NCBI RefSeq assembly: GCF_037975215.1
Contig: NZ_CP150239.1
Span: 2,332,001 to 2,396,000, forward strand
Origin: Solibacillus sp. FSL R5-0449
GTDB taxonomy: Bacteria > Bacillota > Bacilli > Bacillales_A > Planococcaceae
Direction: 5' to 3'
Length of the DNA: 64,000 bases
Below the pieces are notes generated by a model. It was not told the DNA's origin and ran no database searches. It was given only the letters and a program-made list of their open reading frames with translations. The translations under genes and the position numbers were made by a program. This document shows, one piece after another, positions 4,932 to 10,078 of the stretch; position 1 is the stretch's first letter; every line of letters starts with the position of its first letter.

Positions 4932-5582
4932 CTAATAACTAAACTTTACACGCACTGATGCGCTTACTGTCATCGTTCCAGGTTCTATCGGTGTCACGAC
5001 CCGTTGGCTGCTTAACTGCATCGCCTTGTACGGGATCGGAGCAATCGTTTGCTCTTCGATTATTTCCACCGGCACCATGTGTAATGTAACACCCATCGTT
5101 TTTGCCATAGCTGTTGCTTTCCCCACGGCATCGATTAAAGCAAACTGAAGTGCCTGCCGGTAATAAACATCTGTATCCGTTATTTTAAACTCGATAGCTG
5201 ATACATGGTTTGCCCCATTTTGAATGGCCGTGTCAATTGCCGTACCTACTTGACCAATATCGTCTATTTTTACTGTTATGGCGTTTTGTACTTCGTAGCC
5301 CCTTAGCACCTGTTTTCCATCTATGAAATCGTAATTTGGAAAGATATTGTAAGCAGTCGTCTGAATCGATTCTTTTGGAATCTTTAAAGCCATTAGTGAG
5401 TCTATGACACGATTCATAATGACCGCATTTTCCCGCTGGATCGCGCTGACATCTTTCCCTTGCGTCCGCACTTCAATTTGTACTTGCGCATAATCAGGCT
5501 GCGCAACGATTTCCCCATTCCCTGTAACAGTCATTTCCCGTGCATTAGCGCCTGGTTGAAACATCATTTGTTGGTGATACAA
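4932..5582 (-). CDS. SIMPL-domain (DUF541) protein
   Basis: The product is a 216-residue soluble protein of the SIMPL/YggE (DUF541) family. It shows the N-terminal MTVTGNGEIVAQPDYAQVQIEV strand, the QRENAVIMNRVIDSL helix, the characteristic GYEVQNAITVKIDDIGQVGTAID segment and a C-terminal beta strand ending TMTVSASVRVKFSY. I place the start at the TTG at 5582, because AAAGGTGG lies 6 nt upstream and homology begins there. The longer frame to 5681 adds 33 unrelated residues. No signal peptide is visible, unlike many periplasmic family members. Function in Gram-positives is unclear; relatives have been linked to oxidative stress. It has its own terminator and is flanked by a terminator at 5709-5743, so it is monocistronic. 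Confidence 0.82.
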   Translation of the reverse strand: MYHQQMMFQPGANAREMTVTGNGEIVAQPDYAQVQIEVRTQGKDVSAIQRENAVIMNRVIDSLMALKIPKESIQTTAYNIFPNYDFIDGKQVLRGYEVQNAITVKIDDIGQVGTAIDTAIQNGANHVSAIEFKITDTDVYYRQALQFALIDAVGKATAMAKTMGVTLHMVPVEIIEEQTIAPIPYKAMQLSSQRVVTPIEPGTMTVSASVRVKFSY

Positions 5583-5708
5583 GAGCTTCCACCTTTCTAA
5601 TAGCTGGTTTCTTAATATACTATGCACTTTATTGACAGGGGTTGTTATTTTCAGGTCGCAATGGGAGTTGAAAGCAGTCACTATAGACAGCCTTTCTACA
5701 GATAAATA

Positions 5709-5743
5709 AAAAAAAATCGCTAAACTAATACCAGTTTAGCGAT
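5709..5743 (-). terminator. Terminator of the peptide/protease operon
   Basis: On the minus strand, AAATCGCTAAACTGG pairs with its complement around a short loop, followed by nine T. It lies directly downstream of the M50 protease stop at 5749. Confidence 0.85.
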
Positions 5744-5748
5744 TTCTC

Positions 5749-6933
5749 TTAGTTTTCTTGCTTCTGTTTTCTTGCTATAAAAACAAGCAAAATAAGCATG
5801 AACATGGTCATTGCAAAAAATGTCACGGCATCCCAAAAAGCAGCACGATCGCCTGCTCCGAGAAGATTCATATAAATCGTATTGTACGTATAATAAAGCT
5901 GCGGTACAAAATACATCACTGCCAAAACTAACGTTAAAACAACTCCAACTATGTAAAATACACTATACAAGCGAATGAAATTCCATTCATTTTGGAATAT
6001 CTCTTTATAATTCTTTTCATCTTTTCGATCCTTTTTAACGAAGGAATTCAAATAGATTTTGCCATTTTCCATTAAGTTATAACAGCCCGTTAGATTTTCC
6101 ACAACATAATAAACATCTGTTTTCATATAAAAGCAGCATTGATAAATAAATTTAATGAAAATATCCAATACGATGATCCCAAGAATTCCTGTCATACCCT
6201 CGTTCGGAAAAAGAAGCATTACGCAGAATGAAACAAATAGAATTACCTGCTCAAAAGATATTCCGGCAAGGTACAGGGTATTTCTTTTTTGTGGATCGAG
6301 CTTCCAAGCTTGAGTGAGGTCTGTTTCAAAAACGATAAATATGAGCCGATTTCCAATACTTAATTTCGCCGGTAAATCGTGTGATCGAATGGCAAGAATA
6401 TGGCCGAACTCATGAATTAAAATTAATACTAAAGAAATTGATAAGTATATAAGAATATTCAGTACCATAGAATCGAATAGGAATATATCTTTGTAATGCG
6501 GAAAAAGTTCAGGATTTAGTATAAGAATAATGATATTTGCAATGAGCAGGAGTATATATACCTTGCTCATCATTCCATTAAAAAATAGACGCCCTACTGA
6601 TTGGGGAATCCATAAGAAACCACCTGAACGTGATGAAGATTTAGACAGTTCTTTTTTAACGTGTACACCATCCACTTCTTGGACTAGCCCCAAATCCAAC
6701 AGCTGCTCCACAAAATCAACAATGTCCACTTCTTCATCCGGATATGAATTTTTTAATGCCTGTTCAATGGTAACAAGTTCTTCCCCTTGTTCCAATCGTT
6801 TGATGGCATCAACACCAATCTCAGGCAATTCAAAGAAATCCCCTGAAATCGGCTCTTCTACAATATAATGTTTTTTATCTTTTCGTATGGATAATGGATA
6901 TAACGTTATTTCAGATTGTAAGGATACCTTCAA
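5749..6933 (-). CDS. PqqD-like/M50 membrane zinc metalloprotease
   Basis: This 394-residue protein has an N-terminal soluble part (about residues 1-95) that looks like a PqqD-type peptide-recognition (RRE) winged helix: PISGDFFELPEIGVDAIKRL, a hinge, then EVDIVDFVEQLLDLGLV. A linker and a membrane region of about seven segments follow, holding HEFGH (174-178), the zinc site of family M50. A second M50-type motif, MKTDVYYVVENL, lies near residue 260. Such RRE-protease proteins (for example YydH-type) process or export ribosomally made peptides. The start is TTG after GAGGAGG. It is the last gene of an operon with the tiny peptide gene at 7002-7067 and the HD-GYP gene. By inference it matures or releases that peptide; whether the RRE is genuine should be tested by structure prediction. 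Confidence 0.8.
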   Translation of the reverse strand: MKVSLQSEITLYPLSIRKDKKHYIVEEPISGDFFELPEIGVDAIKRLEQGEELVTIEQALKNSYPDEEVDIVDFVEQLLDLGLVQEVDGVHVKKELSKSSSRSGGFLWIPQSVGRLFFNGMMSKVYILLLIANIIILILNPELFPHYKDIFLFDSMVLNILIYLSISLVLILIHEFGHILAIRSHDLPAKLSIGNRLIFIVFETDLTQAWKLDPQKRNTLYLAGISFEQVILFVSFCVMLLFPNEGMTGILGIIVLDIFIKFIYQCCFYMKTDVYYVVENLTGCYNLMENGKIYLNSFVKKDRKDEKNYKEIFQNEWNFIRLYSVFYIVGVVLTLVLAVMYFVPQLYYTYNTIYMNLLGAGDRAAFWDAVTFFAMTMFMLILLVFIARKQKQEN

Positions 6934-6960
6934 ACTATAGCCTCCTCTTTAAATTAAAAT

Positions 6961-6984
6961 AGGATGCTATAGTTATAGCATCCT
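6961..6984 (-). promoter_or_regulatory. Perfect hairpin between peptide gene and protease gene, possible attenuator
   Basis: The arms AGGATGCTAT and ATAGCATCCT form a perfect 10-bp stem with a 4-nt loop. On the minus strand it is followed by ATTTTAATTT, a weak T tract. It lies 17 nt after the peptide stop and about 30 nt before the protease start. It could be a leaky terminator, or an mRNA stabiliser that raises the amount of peptide message relative to protease message. Confidence 0.6.
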
Positions 6985-7001
6985 AAGTATGTACTTCTTT
7001 A

Positions 7002-7067
7002 TCATTTTGGTACTAACCAGCACCACCAACAAGTAACTTTAATTTTATTCAATTTCCGAATTTTCAT
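7002..7067 (-). CDS. Tiny Cys/Trp-rich peptide (21 aa), candidate peptide precursor
   Basis: This 22-codon frame starts at an ATG whose bases overlap the HD-GYP stop codon (ATGA), so translation is probably coupled. A purine run (GAGGGGGGGG) sits at SD distance. The N-terminal half is basic (six Lys/Arg among ten residues) and the C-terminal half is VTCWWCWLVPK, with two cysteines and three tryptophans in five positions. Such a leader-plus-core layout, placed before a membrane protease with a PqqD-like domain, is typical of ribosomally made modified peptides or peptide signals. No radical SAM or cyclase gene is adjacent, so the modification, if any, may be a disulfide or none. I know no named family with this core. 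Coding is inferred from position, overlap and composition, not homology. Confidence 0.6.
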   Translation of the reverse strand: MKIRKLNKIKVTCWWCWLVPK

Positions 7068-8242
7068 GCTTTTCCCCCCCCTCTCATATCCATACCTTTA
7101 AGATATGTTTTTGAAATATTCACCCATTGAGGATAAATTTGCTTAAATAATTTTATCAGTTGTGGGTCAAATTGACTTCCTTGACCATCAAGAATTCGTT
7201 GATATGCCACTTCAAATTCAAGTGCAGGACGATAGGATCTGGATGAAGTCATGGCATCAAATGCATCCGCTACCGCAGTGACTCTTGCTAAAAATGGAAT
7301 ATCGTCTTCTGCTAGACCATCCGGATACCCTTTACCATCCCATCTTTCATGATGATGATAAATTACATCAATATTATCAGCAATGCCTTCAACATCCCGA
7401 ATAGCTTCTGCTCCAACAACAGGGTGAGTCTTAATTATATCAAATTCCTCATTCGTTAACATACCGGGTTTTGTTAAAATTGAATCTGGTATACTAACTT
7501 TTCCAATATCATGTAATAGGCAAGCATAGTAAAAATTATTTAATTCAGCGGGTTTAAATCTCCCCGTAGCCTCAGCCATGTTCATTGCATAAGCAGCAAC
7601 TCGTTCGCTATGGCCACGAGTATAGGGATCTTTCAGTTCCAACGTTGCAATTACTCCTTTTACAATGCCTTCCAACTGTTCATCATAGGAATACTTTAAT
7701 GCTTTAATATAATTTAAAAAACGATGAAGTAGTATAAATGAAATAAATGATAATACAATTAGAATACTAATTGGGAATAATACCAATATATCCCTTATAA
7801 ATACACCAACTAAAACATATTTCAATAGTAAACCCAATGTTATATAGTAAGTGAATTTCTTACTTACGAAAATTGGAGAAAAAAGTATAACTACAAGTTC
7901 TACCATGTTCCCACTAGTGTATGGAAGCGTACTATCTTTATAATAGAATATATCAGAAAATAAATTAGTTAAAAAATAACAGAAAAATAATATGTATTTT
8001 ACTGACTCTGTTTTCTCTATTTTAATTAAATAAATTGATAAAGGCACTACTGCAATCATAACTCCAAATTTAACAAACAAAAAATCATACCACACTGTAC
8101 TCTTTGTGTTAACATCGCTCCACGGAAATGTGGGAAAAAGATTATTATAAAAGATTTCATAAACAAAAAACACAACATAAAATAACCATAAAAATAAAAT
8201 TGTGGACCGCTTTTCTTCTAATAACAATGATGTTTTTTTCAT
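7064..8242 (-). CDS. Membrane HD-GYP cyclic-di-GMP phosphodiesterase
   Basis: The 392-residue protein has six hydrophobic segments in its first 190 residues. An HD-GYP domain (about 195-375) follows, with GHSERVA, LLHDIGK (the HD pair), THPVVGA, HHHERWDGKGYPDGL (the GYP motif) and ADAFDAMTSSRSYRP. All metal-ligand motifs expected for c-di-GMP hydrolysis appear intact. The membrane part could be a sensor; I do not recognise it as a named domain. The C-terminus ends in a glycine run, MRGGGKA, encoded by the G-rich stretch that also serves as SD for the 21-codon peptide gene. The start ATG follows GCGAGGT. A TATAAT at 8294-8299 may be its -10 box. As first gene of the peptide operon, it may link the peptide to c-di-GMP signalling. 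Confidence 0.9.
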   Translation of the reverse strand: MKKTSLLLEEKRSTILFLWLFYVVFFVYEIFYNNLFPTFPWSDVNTKSTVWYDFLFVKFGVMIAVVPLSIYLIKIEKTESVKYILFFCYFLTNLFSDIFYYKDSTLPYTSGNMVELVVILFSPIFVSKKFTYYITLGLLLKYVLVGVFIRDILVLFPISILIVLSFISFILLHRFLNYIKALKYSYDEQLEGIVKGVIATLELKDPYTRGHSERVAAYAMNMAEATGRFKPAELNNFYYACLLHDIGKVSIPDSILTKPGMLTNEEFDIIKTHPVVGAEAIRDVEGIADNIDVIYHHHERWDGKGYPDGLAEDDIPFLARVTAVADAFDAMTSSRSYRPALEFEVAYQRILDGQGSQFDPQLIKLFKQIYPQWVNISKTYLKGMDMRGGGKA

Positions 8243-8626
8243 TTTTTACCTCGCAATTTCATTACCAACCAAAAGACCTTATGCTCATATATCATTATAA
8301 CACGATAATGGAAATTAGTTCTATATGTCCAGGGTTTAATTTTCTCATTTTTTTGTTATTTAACTCTTTTAACCAAAATATATTTACTTTGTACCTATAT
8401 GCTATATAAATAAAAGTTGATTTATTGTTTTAACAATAAGGCTATCTTAACAATACCCTTTTATATAGCACAACTCAATTCCTATTTTTTCTCATTTCAA
8501 GTAATTTTGATTATATAAAAACCTAAATCATATCTGAATCAAAAGTCTTATTAAAAGAAACGCTTTATATTTCTAAAAATAAAAAGACCTAATCAAAAAT
8601 TATGATTAGGTCTCACTTTATGAATA
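8243..8626. other. Intergenic region upstream of the HD-GYP operon
   Basis: No gene is supported in these 384 bases. They are very AT-rich. The only features I can point to are a minus-strand TATAAT (8294-8299) at a plausible distance from the HD-GYP start, and the aldehyde dehydrogenase terminator at its right end. An open frame of 93 codons on the plus strand (8128-8409) is antisense to the HD-GYP start and has no convincing SD. Confidence 0.6.
8582..8614 (-). terminator. Terminator of the aldehyde dehydrogenase gene
   Basis: On the minus strand, GACCTAATCA pairs with TGATTAGGTC, followed by TTTTTATT, just downstream of the stop at 8627. Confidence 0.85.
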
Positions 8627-10078
8627 TTAAAACGGATATTCTCGTGGATCTGTCTGAACAGAAATCCATTTGGTTGTTGTGAATTCATGGATTGCCCATT
8701 CGCCACCATATCGGCCTAAACCTGAAGCTTTCTCTCCACCAAAGGCAACGATCGGTTCATCATTGACTCCCTGATCATTCACGTGAATCATACCTGTAAT
8801 AATCTGTTTAGCCACTTCCACACCATGTTCTGTTGTACCAGCATGAACTGCACCGCTCAGGCCATAGTCGCTGTCATTGGCAACACGAATTGCTTCTTCC
8901 TCACTGTCTACAACAATTACCCCTACAGCAGGTCCGAAAATTTCCTCCTGTGCAATCGGCATATCGTTTGTAACATTCGTTAAAATAGTAGGAGCCAGTA
9001 CATTTCCATCCACTTCACCTTGTAAAGCGTATTTTGCCCCTTTCTCGATACTTTGGTCGATTAATCGTTGAATTCGAGTAATTTGTTTGTTATTAATAAG
9101 CGGACCGACAACTACATCGTCATTTTTCGGATCACCGTATTTAATTTTGGATGCTCTATCCACAAATGCTTTTATAAACGACTCATACGCTGGACGTTCA
9201 ACAACAATCCGGTTTAGCGACATACAAATCTGCCCACTGTTTAAAAATTTCCCGAAGGCCGCTGAAGCTGCTGCTCTTTCTACATCCGCATCCTTCAAGA
9301 CAAGCATGACATTGTTTCCGCCAAGTTCAAGTGCTACACGTTTCAGGTTTCTTCCGCATACTTCTCCGATATGGCGCCCTACCTCTGTGGAACCGGTAAA
9401 AGAAATAATTTGAGGAATAGGGTGCTCAATAAATGCATCTTTAATTTCGGATGAGCTGCAAACTGTAATATTTAACAACCCTTTAGGGATGCCGGCCTCT
9501 TCAAAAATTTCACCTAAAATAAGGCCGCCTGAAACCATTGTCTGCAAGTCCGGTTTAAGCACAACGCCATTACCTGTTGCCAAAGCCGGTGCCAATGAAC
9601 GCATCGTTAAATGGAACGGGAAGTTGAATGGACTAATAATCCCTACTACACCCGCAGGATTATGATATACGCGGTTCTCTTTTCCCGGAATGATGGATGG
9701 CATGATTTTCCCATGCATCCGGAGCGGGAATGTAGCCGCTTCTTTCATAATGCCAATTCCGCCACTAATTTCAATATTGGCTTTCGTATGGGAAGCCCCG
9801 TTTTCTTCAACTAAAATCTGAACGATTTCTTCTCTTCTTCGCTCAACAATTTGGACAGCTTTTTCTATAATTGCTTGTCTTTGATAAGCATTAACCTGTT
9901 CCCATTCTTTTTGCGCTTCTTTGGCTGCTTGATATGCCTCATCTATATCCTTCACATTTGCCAACCGAATTTCCGCAATCGTTTCCTCGTTGTAAGGATT
10001 CTGGTCTACGTATACTTTTTCGCTGTTTCCTTCTCTCCATTCGCCACCAATAAACTGCTTATTCCACTTTTTATCCAT
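8627..10078 (-). CDS. NAD(P)-dependent aldehyde dehydrogenase (YfmT/benzaldehyde-vanillin type)
   Basis: The product is a 483-residue aldehyde dehydrogenase. It oxidises an aldehyde to the acid with NAD(P)+. Visible hallmarks are the cofactor/substrate region SPFNFPFHLTMRSLAPALATGN, the FTGSTEVGR glycine motif, the general base in ALELGGNN and the catalytic cysteine in NSGQICMS, and the C-terminal PIVAFGGEKASGLGRYGGEWAIHEFTTTKWIS. The sequence is closest in my memory to the aromatic aldehyde group that includes B. subtilis YfmT (vanillin dehydrogenase). I place the start at 10078 because AAAGGATG lies 7-8 nt upstream; the frame extends ten codons further without an SD. The gene is divergent from the nitrilase operon. 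The real substrate is unknown. Confidence 0.85.
   Translation of the reverse strand: MDKKWNKQFIGGEWREGNSEKVYVDQNPYNEETIAEIRLANVKDIDEAYQAAKEAQKEWEQVNAYQRQAIIEKAVQIVERRREEIVQILVEENGASHTKANIEISGGIGIMKEAATFPLRMHGKIMPSIIPGKENRVYHNPAGVVGIISPFNFPFHLTMRSLAPALATGNGVVLKPDLQTMVSGGLILGEIFEEAGIPKGLLNITVCSSSEIKDAFIEHPIPQIISFTGSTEVGRHIGEVCGRNLKRVALELGGNNVMLVLKDADVERAAASAAFGKFLNSGQICMSLNRIVVERPAYESFIKAFVDRASKIKYGDPKNDDVVVGPLINNKQITRIQRLIDQSIEKGAKYALQGEVDGNVLAPTILTNVTNDMPIAQEEIFGPAVGVIVVDSEEEAIRVANDSDYGLSGAVHAGTTEHGVEVAKQIITGMIHVNDQGVNDEPIVAFGGEKASGLGRYGGEWAIHEFTTTKWISVQTDPREYPF

Follow-up and report, generated by a model that had tools for sequence, protein, structure and literature searches.

Short precursors encoded beside a membrane protease and a multi-transmembrane receptor are known from staphylococcal agr, in which the signal carries a Cys-dependent ring and hypervariability extends from the 3' part of agrB through agrD into the 5' part of agrC (PMC3673130, in excerpt). 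In the epipeptide systems EpeX/EpeP (YydF/YydH) a membrane M50 protease matures the peptide (PMC10885120, in excerpt), and the Rgg/SHP and enterococcal Eep pheromones arise from a short precursor with a C-terminal signal through a site-2 type metalloprotease (PMC3150281, in excerpt). The locus described here lies in a stretch of 64,000 nucleotides from Solibacillus sp. FSL R5-0449 (contig NZ_CP150239.1; this whole stretch is called the window below). It consists of a gene for a MASE12-HD-GYP protein, a gene for the 21-aa peptide MKIRKLNKIKVTCWWCWLVPK and a gene for a membrane M50 metalloprotease, the N-terminus of which is modelled as a RiPP recognition element (RRE; RiPP, ribosomally synthesized and post-translationally modified peptide). 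The tail of the peptide varies together with the MASE12 domain, and the cassette is probably an Agr-like peptide-signal system of the quorum-sensing type that acts on cyclic di-GMP (c-di-GMP).

The gene order on the minus strand is HD-GYP, peptide, terminator-like hairpin, M50 and a second hairpin. A preliminary description of the locus had named the three genes and the ATGA shared by the peptide start codon and the HD-GYP stop codon, leaving the strand unstated; both observations were confirmed and all three genes placed on the minus strand. The plus strand of 7002-7067 is interrupted by a stop, and the genome holds a single M50 copy. The three genes and their parts are:

7064..8242, minus strand: MASE12-HD-GYP gene (392 aa; MASE12 and HD_5), proposed receptor and putative c-di-GMP phosphodiesterase
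7724..8218, minus strand: MASE12 domain (residues 9-173; about six predicted transmembrane helices), proposed peptide sensor
7157..7648, minus strand: HD-GYP catalytic domain, HD_5 (residues 199-362)
7002..7067, minus strand: peptide gene, MKIRKLNKIKVTCWWCWLVPK (21 aa), proposed pheromone precursor
7032..7067, minus strand: conserved basic leader of the peptide (residues 1-12), which would bind the RRE
7005..7031, minus strand: peptide core, CWWC and variable tail (residues 13-21; putative boundary), proposed mature signal
5749..6933, minus strand: gene for the membrane M50 metalloprotease with N-terminal RRE (394 aa, TTG start), proposed maturation and possibly export protease
6664..6933, minus strand: RRE or PqqD-like domain of the M50 protein (residues 1-90), predicted from a structure model and fold search
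6400..6414, minus strand: HEFGH zinc site of the M50 protein (residues 174-178)

Related loci were collected with the M50 protein as the sole query, and conservation of the peptide was therefore not built into the set. Fifty-five loci from named Bacilli and those of 12 of the 16 genomes of the genus gave 67 loci, or 64 after removal of three duplicates (L013-L015). The hosts were Solibacillus, Ureibacillus, Sporosarcina, Oceanobacillus, Virgibacillus, Gracilibacillus, Neobacillus and others, and one record was labelled Paenibacillus sp. The HD-GYP gene stood 5' and the M50 gene 3' of the peptide gene in 67 of 67 loci; in L018 the HD-GYP gene is a fragment at the contig start, matching in two frames. 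The peptides have 19-26 aa and the design MKIRKLxKxKxT-CWWC-variable tail, and a purine-rich stretch resembling a ribosome site precedes their start in the loci. Alignment of 57 peptides revealed four invariant residues (K2, L6, C13 and C16) and seven conserved in at least 90% (I3, R4, K5, K10, T12, W14 and W15). The ratio of nonsynonymous to synonymous change (pN/pS, a simple count over 62 distinct peptide genes) was 0.20 in the leader, 0.80 in the first four tail residues and 0.023 in CxxC, the last value being rough owing to Trp codon counting, which raised pS above 1. On these ratios the gene acts through its protein product, the front of which is fixed and the end free to change. Insertions of 1-3 residues between T12 and C13 in L036, L044, L056 and L065 give a hint that the leader/core boundary may lie at this place. 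The preliminary description had taken the short open reading frame (ORF) for a real gene and would have given it up if the ORF were lost or interrupted in relatives; a peptide of the same design was intact between HD-GYP and M50 in every locus.

In the 12 genomes of the genus, CxxC is followed by either W or F, as it is in Ureibacillus (L016). The MutS2 proteins of G005, G006, G007, G010 and G014 are 99% identical to that of the window genome (G000). MASE12 nucleotide identity to the window was 72-74% in the four F genomes and 90% in the other W genome, G007, and no W/F split was seen in ALDH (87-91%), HD (84-87%) or M50 (82-89%). Trees were built from 13 rows (12 for MutS2). In the MASE12 tree W and F part at 100/100 with one change, and the clade of the six species is rejected (p 6e-10). 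The same species clade was supported at 100/100 by M50 and MutS2 and at 82/83 by HD. A single W clade was rejected by HD (p 0.010), M50 (p 2e-5) and MutS2 (p 9e-4), on which 4, 3 and 3 W/F changes are needed, respectively. Nine of the ten fixed W/F differences of the MASE12-HD-GYP protein lie within the first 185 residues and one at residue 386. The two peptide types match two MASE12 clades, contradicting the HD, protease and MutS2 trees. Such specificity groups, in which the peptide changes jointly with the N-terminal part of the receptor (here the proposed one), are also a feature of agr.

Covariation across the wider set was assessed with partial Mantel tests on 54 loci; rows with an incomplete or ambiguous HD-GYP reading (such as L018, L019, L021 and L040) were omitted, as were several close relatives, and the underlying alignments comprised 60 M50 and 55 HD-GYP rows. 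Given HD, RRE and M50, tail distance followed MASE12 (r 0.27, p 0.0005), and it followed neither RRE (r -0.07) nor M50 (r -0.05). Leader distance followed no part clearly (RRE r 0.14, p 0.06; MASE12 r 0.01). The association of tail and MASE12 persisted without the Solibacillus and Ureibacillus rows (n=46, r 0.24, p 0.0003), in the loci that carry a MASE12 kinase (n=21, r 0.42, p 0.0003) and in the remaining loci (n=25, r 0.19, p 0.004). In 27 matched pairs that share no row, the partial rho was 0.44 for MASE12 (p 0.015) and 0.06-0.08 for the other parts. Linkage alone would favour HD and not MASE12, because on the DNA it is HD that separates MASE12 from the peptide.

Pfam analysis of the HD-GYP protein predicted MASE12 (E 1.5e-68) and HD_5 (E 6.6e-37). 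Residues H244 and D245 and the motif HHERWDG-x-GYP (297-307) are invariant in 55 HD-GYP proteins, and the structure model (mean predicted local distance difference test, pLDDT, 85.2) matched the HD-GYP structures 4r8z and 4mcw in Foldseek at probability 1.00. With its HD and HHExxDGxGYP catalytic motifs, the protein is a predicted HD-GYP phosphodiesterase. For the MASE12 half, model helices and hydropathy predict about six transmembrane helices; it gave no fold match, all significant Foldseek matches of the model being HD-domain proteins. No described function of MASE12 was found among the literature matches listed, and in PMC7190382 the name occurs only as a locus-tag prefix. In 22 of the 55 loci, profile and motif searches placed a further MASE12 protein, with a histidine-kinase motif, beside the trio; 20 of these genes directly precede it in the same orientation, that of L041 is divergent and that of L067 lies downstream. 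Pfam assigned MASE12, HisKA and HATPase_c to the kinases of L057 and L175, and MASE12 and HisKA to part of that of L044. In a test on 21 of the 22 kinases, variation of their MASE12 domain tracked both the peptide tail (r 0.24, p 0.035) and the HD-GYP-borne MASE12 domain (r 0.24, p 0.008), and the kinase part did not follow the tail (r -0.34). The window locus has HD-GYP as its MASE12 output and no MASE12 kinase. Because one sensor domain carries two types of output beside one peptide gene, the arrangement suggests that MASE12 reads the peptide. In 6 of 55 loci, a GGDEF gene (assigned by Pfam in one, L033) directly precedes the HD-GYP gene. A further HD-GYP protein with a weak MASE12 match (L170:3908-5056, E 1.7e-7) has neither peptide nor M50 gene adjoining.

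The M50 protein matched Peptidase_M50 (E 2.2e-4) and PqqD (E 4.2e-4), both below the curated Pfam cut-offs, and H174, E175, H178 and D273 are invariant in 60 M50 proteins. It matched neither AgrB in Pfam nor the YydH/LiaK model NF058609 up to E 1. In the AlphaFold2 model (mean pLDDT 85.8), residues 1-90 have pLDDT 78-91 in blocks of ten and form four strands, three helices and one strand. The top six Foldseek matches are B1 RREs of lasso-peptide systems, in structures that include the leader peptide (five TbiB1 chains and one of 6jx3; probability 1.00, TM-score on target 0.64-0.71, E 0.025-0.2). Lower ranks are taken by TigE, McbBCD and sactipeptide enzymes, with SpoIVFB at rank 14, SkfB at 20 and SuiB at 31, and from rank 15 unrelated membrane and coiled proteins are interspersed with RiPP enzymes. 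The N-terminus is thus modelled as an RRE, for which leader binding is proposed, and a predicted RRE on a maturation protein is what RRE-dependent RiPP systems have, as judged from model and fold search with PqqD below its Pfam cut-off. Three cysteines that lie close to D273 in the sequence of the M50 protein, Cys266, Cys267 (6133-6138) and Cys284 (6082-6084), are at least 90% conserved, and thiol chemistry with the CxxC peptide is possible.

Distant relatives of the M50 protein (E about 1e-55) are preceded by three tandem 21-aa peptide genes in L118, L119 and L121; this protease group thus tends to occur together with peptide precursors. The tandem peptides have the sequence MKKIKVKVLPKVGLPANRANT or one close to it, also in L172:3202-6922, where further reading revealed a 34-aa peptide, a DUF2785 gene and a ThiF gene. 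Tandem peptides, M50 and ThiF may form a separate RiPP cluster. The distant M50 protein of L172 scored 32 bits against the YydH/LiaK model, the cut-off of which is 225. A ThiF-like gene, a distant M50 gene and an alpha/beta hydrolase gene stand in a row in L173:18-3104 and, by eye, in L174:3823-6939, and a 19-aa ORF, MKIEIKEVENLTPLICHNR, lies 5' of the ThiF-like gene in the shorter locus L122.

The system is narrow in distribution. Peptide, M50 and MASE12 co-occur in the identical 12 of 16 genus genomes, and the other four have none of them. Among 261 genomes of the order, a strong peptide match was found in 22; the genomes that match M50 strongly are the identical 22, and MASE12 is present in each of them. 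Five genomes of this survey have a distant M50, and two of these also give weak peptide matches. Weak matches to the peptide profile in six of the 261 genomes (E 0.002-0.009) and one in the genome of the window (E 0.056) were taken as chance; four of the seven lie at a CxxC-like frame without leader and three have no such frame at the matched place. In a sample of 398 genomes of the phylum, M50 was found at E 1e-15 in the window genome and one other (G654) only. In the latter (L175), genes for a MASE12 kinase, an HD-GYP-like protein, the peptide and M50 follow one another (Pfam was applied to the kinase alone).

Two further features of the window locus are terminator-like hairpins, the first of which the preliminary description does not mention:

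6960..6985, minus strand: terminator-like hairpin in the gap between peptide and M50 genes, stem GGATG/GGGTG in 61 of 64 loci
5709..5750, minus strand: terminator-like hairpin 3' of the M50 gene

Of the loci outside these 61, L034 and L038 show another hairpin on inspection by eye, and in L065 peptide and M50 are separated by neither hairpin nor gap. The pattern GGATGCT-N2-14-AGCATCC occurs as a single copy in the window, and the hairpin would likely give more peptide than protease mRNA. Its stem (GGATGCT/AGCATCC) is seemingly more conserved than terminator function requires. A role of one hairpin arm as a special partner of the M50 ribosome site was considered and dropped, since the pairing is only slightly stronger than with that of the peptide (37 of 61 loci, p 0.034). 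An Rfam scan of 5500-8700 gave one match, below threshold, at 5597-5744, outside the trio. A sequence-profile search of solved structures gave two matches only (E 0.2-0.9). In L050:6106-7990, pieces of a group II intron (Rfam RF02001, RF01998) lie between hairpin and M50 gene, and the long ORF there looks like a reverse transcriptase.

Clustering of neighbouring ORFs of at least 80 aa in the 55 loci (with the full 8 kb upstream in 48 and downstream in 52) gave two general groups, M50 (55/55) and MASE12/HD-GYP (54/55, L018 missing). No gene family beyond the trio was found in more than 17 loci, in a clustering that did not include a family scan of every neighbour, and no response regulator was common to more than 16. 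Genes for a molybdopterin oxidoreductase, ferredoxin, Rieske-Tat and two-component/GAF proteins lie 3' of M50 in 17 loci (between L042 and L065, Neobacillus-like); this operon was rejected as a functional partner, since it is confined to those loci. The smaller neighbour groups outside it comprise at most 10 loci each. ORFs of at least 200 aa with CxxxCxxC, as in radical SAM enzymes, were found in 6 of 55 loci and are of several kinds, two being the ferredoxin.

In the proposed mechanism, the basic leader of the 21-aa precursor would be bound as an added strand by the RRE of the M50 protease, which would cut near T12/C13 and perhaps help to release the CWWC-tail peptide. The mature peptide would be read by the six-helix MASE12 domain of the HD-GYP protein, and its binding would change c-di-GMP hydrolysis by that protein; where a MASE12 histidine kinase adjoins, as in two fifths of the loci sampled, this kinase would be a second reader of the peptide. 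We infer all of cleavage site, secretion, any disulfide and direct MASE12 binding. The preliminary description had suspected an RRE fold, which the structure model gave, and had seen no radical SAM or cyclase gene adjacent; no modifying enzyme is common to the 55 neighbourhoods. Its link of peptide maturation to c-di-GMP turnover was replaced: the HD-GYP protein is the likely receptor, because MASE12 covaries with the tail far more than HD does and because MASE12 is also found on the neighbouring kinase in 22 of 55 loci. Several observations weigh against a signalling system. The 55 neighbourhoods share no exporter, and the peptide has no evident signal sequence; nor is a modifying enzyme common to them. 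The RRE fold matches rest on shape, none having E below 0.001. The tail also followed HD (r 0.12, p 0.024 with 54 loci; p 0.021 with 46), and in the 25 loci without kinase it followed M50 (r 0.24, p 0.0003) more strongly than MASE12. Mantel permutations are liberal with related sequences. The species clade has a support of just 82/83 in the HD tree, and W and F were defined by one peptide residue after the pairwise identities had been viewed, so that the p-values of the approximately unbiased tree tests are somewhat optimistic. Moreover, MASE12 matches occur in 24 of the 261 order genomes, the two weaker ones (G070 and G181) without peptide and M50.

It is rather unlikely that the peptide is instead a cell-autonomous membrane microprotein which tunes MASE12 proteins and is removed by M50, its CxxC perhaps sensing redox state or metal. 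Regulated intramembrane proteolysis is an established role of M50 proteases, covariation of tail and MASE12 would suit any direct partner, and the shared neighbourhood holds no exporter. However, two tail/receptor types among species with 99% identical MutS2 look intercellular, a nearly unconstrained tail is unlike an internal regulator, and the RRE domain is typical of peptide-maturing proteins. The preliminary description had left the choice between peptide signal and bacteriocin undecided; the fixed leader and CxxC with a variable tail are a signal-like pattern, and it has become improbable that the product is an epipeptide-like (EpeX/YydF) bacteriocin or stress inducer for which the MASE12 proteins serve in sensing or immunity. 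Toxin-immunity pairs also covary, and the distant M50 protein of L172 weakly matches the YydH/LiaK model. Excerpts of PMC10885120 indicate, too, that the M50 protease EpeP is thought to cut and export EpeX. The partner that covaries here is, however, fused to HD-GYP or a histidine kinase, an arrangement more to be expected of a receptor than of an immunity protein, and the neighbourhoods lack a further family in more than 17 of 55 loci and have CxxxCxxC ORFs in only six.

The two Trp codons 5' of a conserved terminator-like hairpin would suit a leader-peptide attenuator, in which Trp and Cys codons and the terminator set M50 transcription through ribosome stalling. We regard this as very improbable: the amino-acid constraint extends over the whole leader with synonymous change free, the tail covaries with MASE12, L065 lacks both the gap and the hairpin, and the hairpin arm hardly prefers the M50 ribosome site over that of the peptide. 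Finally, short genes are often spurious, and a chance ORF is refuted here by its presence in 67 of 67 loci, the ribosome sites before the starts and pN/pS of 0.02-0.20.

As far as the literature searched shows, the cassette is undescribed. No report on CWWC peptides in Bacillus was found. Searches joining M50, PqqD or RiPP with HD-GYP, or RiPP with HD-GYP, gave nothing on this cassette among the matches listed, and those on YydH, M50 and RRE nothing related among theirs. HD-GYP with quorum sensing and peptide pheromone likewise gave no description of it in the excerpts of the matches listed, nor did autoinducing peptide with c-di-GMP phosphodiesterase, or RRE with M50, in the excerpts found. 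The Gram-positive peptide pheromone receptors of which we know are histidine kinases or cytoplasmic regulators. We give an even chance to the claim that the cassette stands for a pheromone family in which the receptor is a membrane c-di-GMP phosphodiesterase, an RRE-M50 protease matures the peptide without a modifying enzyme and the sensor domain is exchanged together with the peptide. The best-covarying partner is a sensor fused to a predicted c-di-GMP-destroying enzyme and, in part of the loci, also to a kinase; through the enzyme, cell-cell signalling would hit the switch between motile and biofilm life in one step. The peptide also provides a candidate ligand class for MASE12, and near-identical species offer natural matched and mismatched peptide/receptor pairs that make the idea directly testable.

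In DSF signalling through RpfC/RpfG, as proposed for the cassette, a cell-cell signal ends in an HD-GYP phosphodiesterase; there, however, the signal is a fatty acid and the HD-GYP protein a response regulator rather than a membrane receptor. The clusters of RRE-M50-like and ThiF genes contain the nearest M50 relatives outside the family, three of five following three 21-aa precursors, and differ by the added ThiF-type enzyme, by peptides without CWWC and by the absence of a MASE12 HD-GYP gene in the stretch read. The Rgg/SHP and Eep systems differ in their cytoplasmic receptors, reached after re-import, and have no c-di-GMP enzyme; to our knowledge, Eep carries no RRE. Epipeptide loci have a radical SAM epimerase and an M50 protease of the YydH/LiaK family, whereas the loci described here share no such epimerase, their M50 protein is of another kind and the partner is an HD-GYP protein; the epipeptide precursor is presumably, by eye, not similar to the window peptide. 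With agr the cassette would share the short precursor, the membrane protease and the multi-transmembrane receptor. The protease is a predicted RRE-M50 metalloprotease with HExxH instead of AgrB, the receptor domain is MASE12, and the constant partner is a predicted c-di-GMP phosphodiesterase and not a kinase; the kinase and response regulator pair of agr has no counterpart in all loci, no response regulator being conserved here. In agr, as excerpts of its description have it, the 3' part of agrB is hypervariable, which the protease gene here is not; what both systems have in common is a hypervariable stretch that takes in the gene for the peptide and the 5' part of that for the receptor, here the proposed one.

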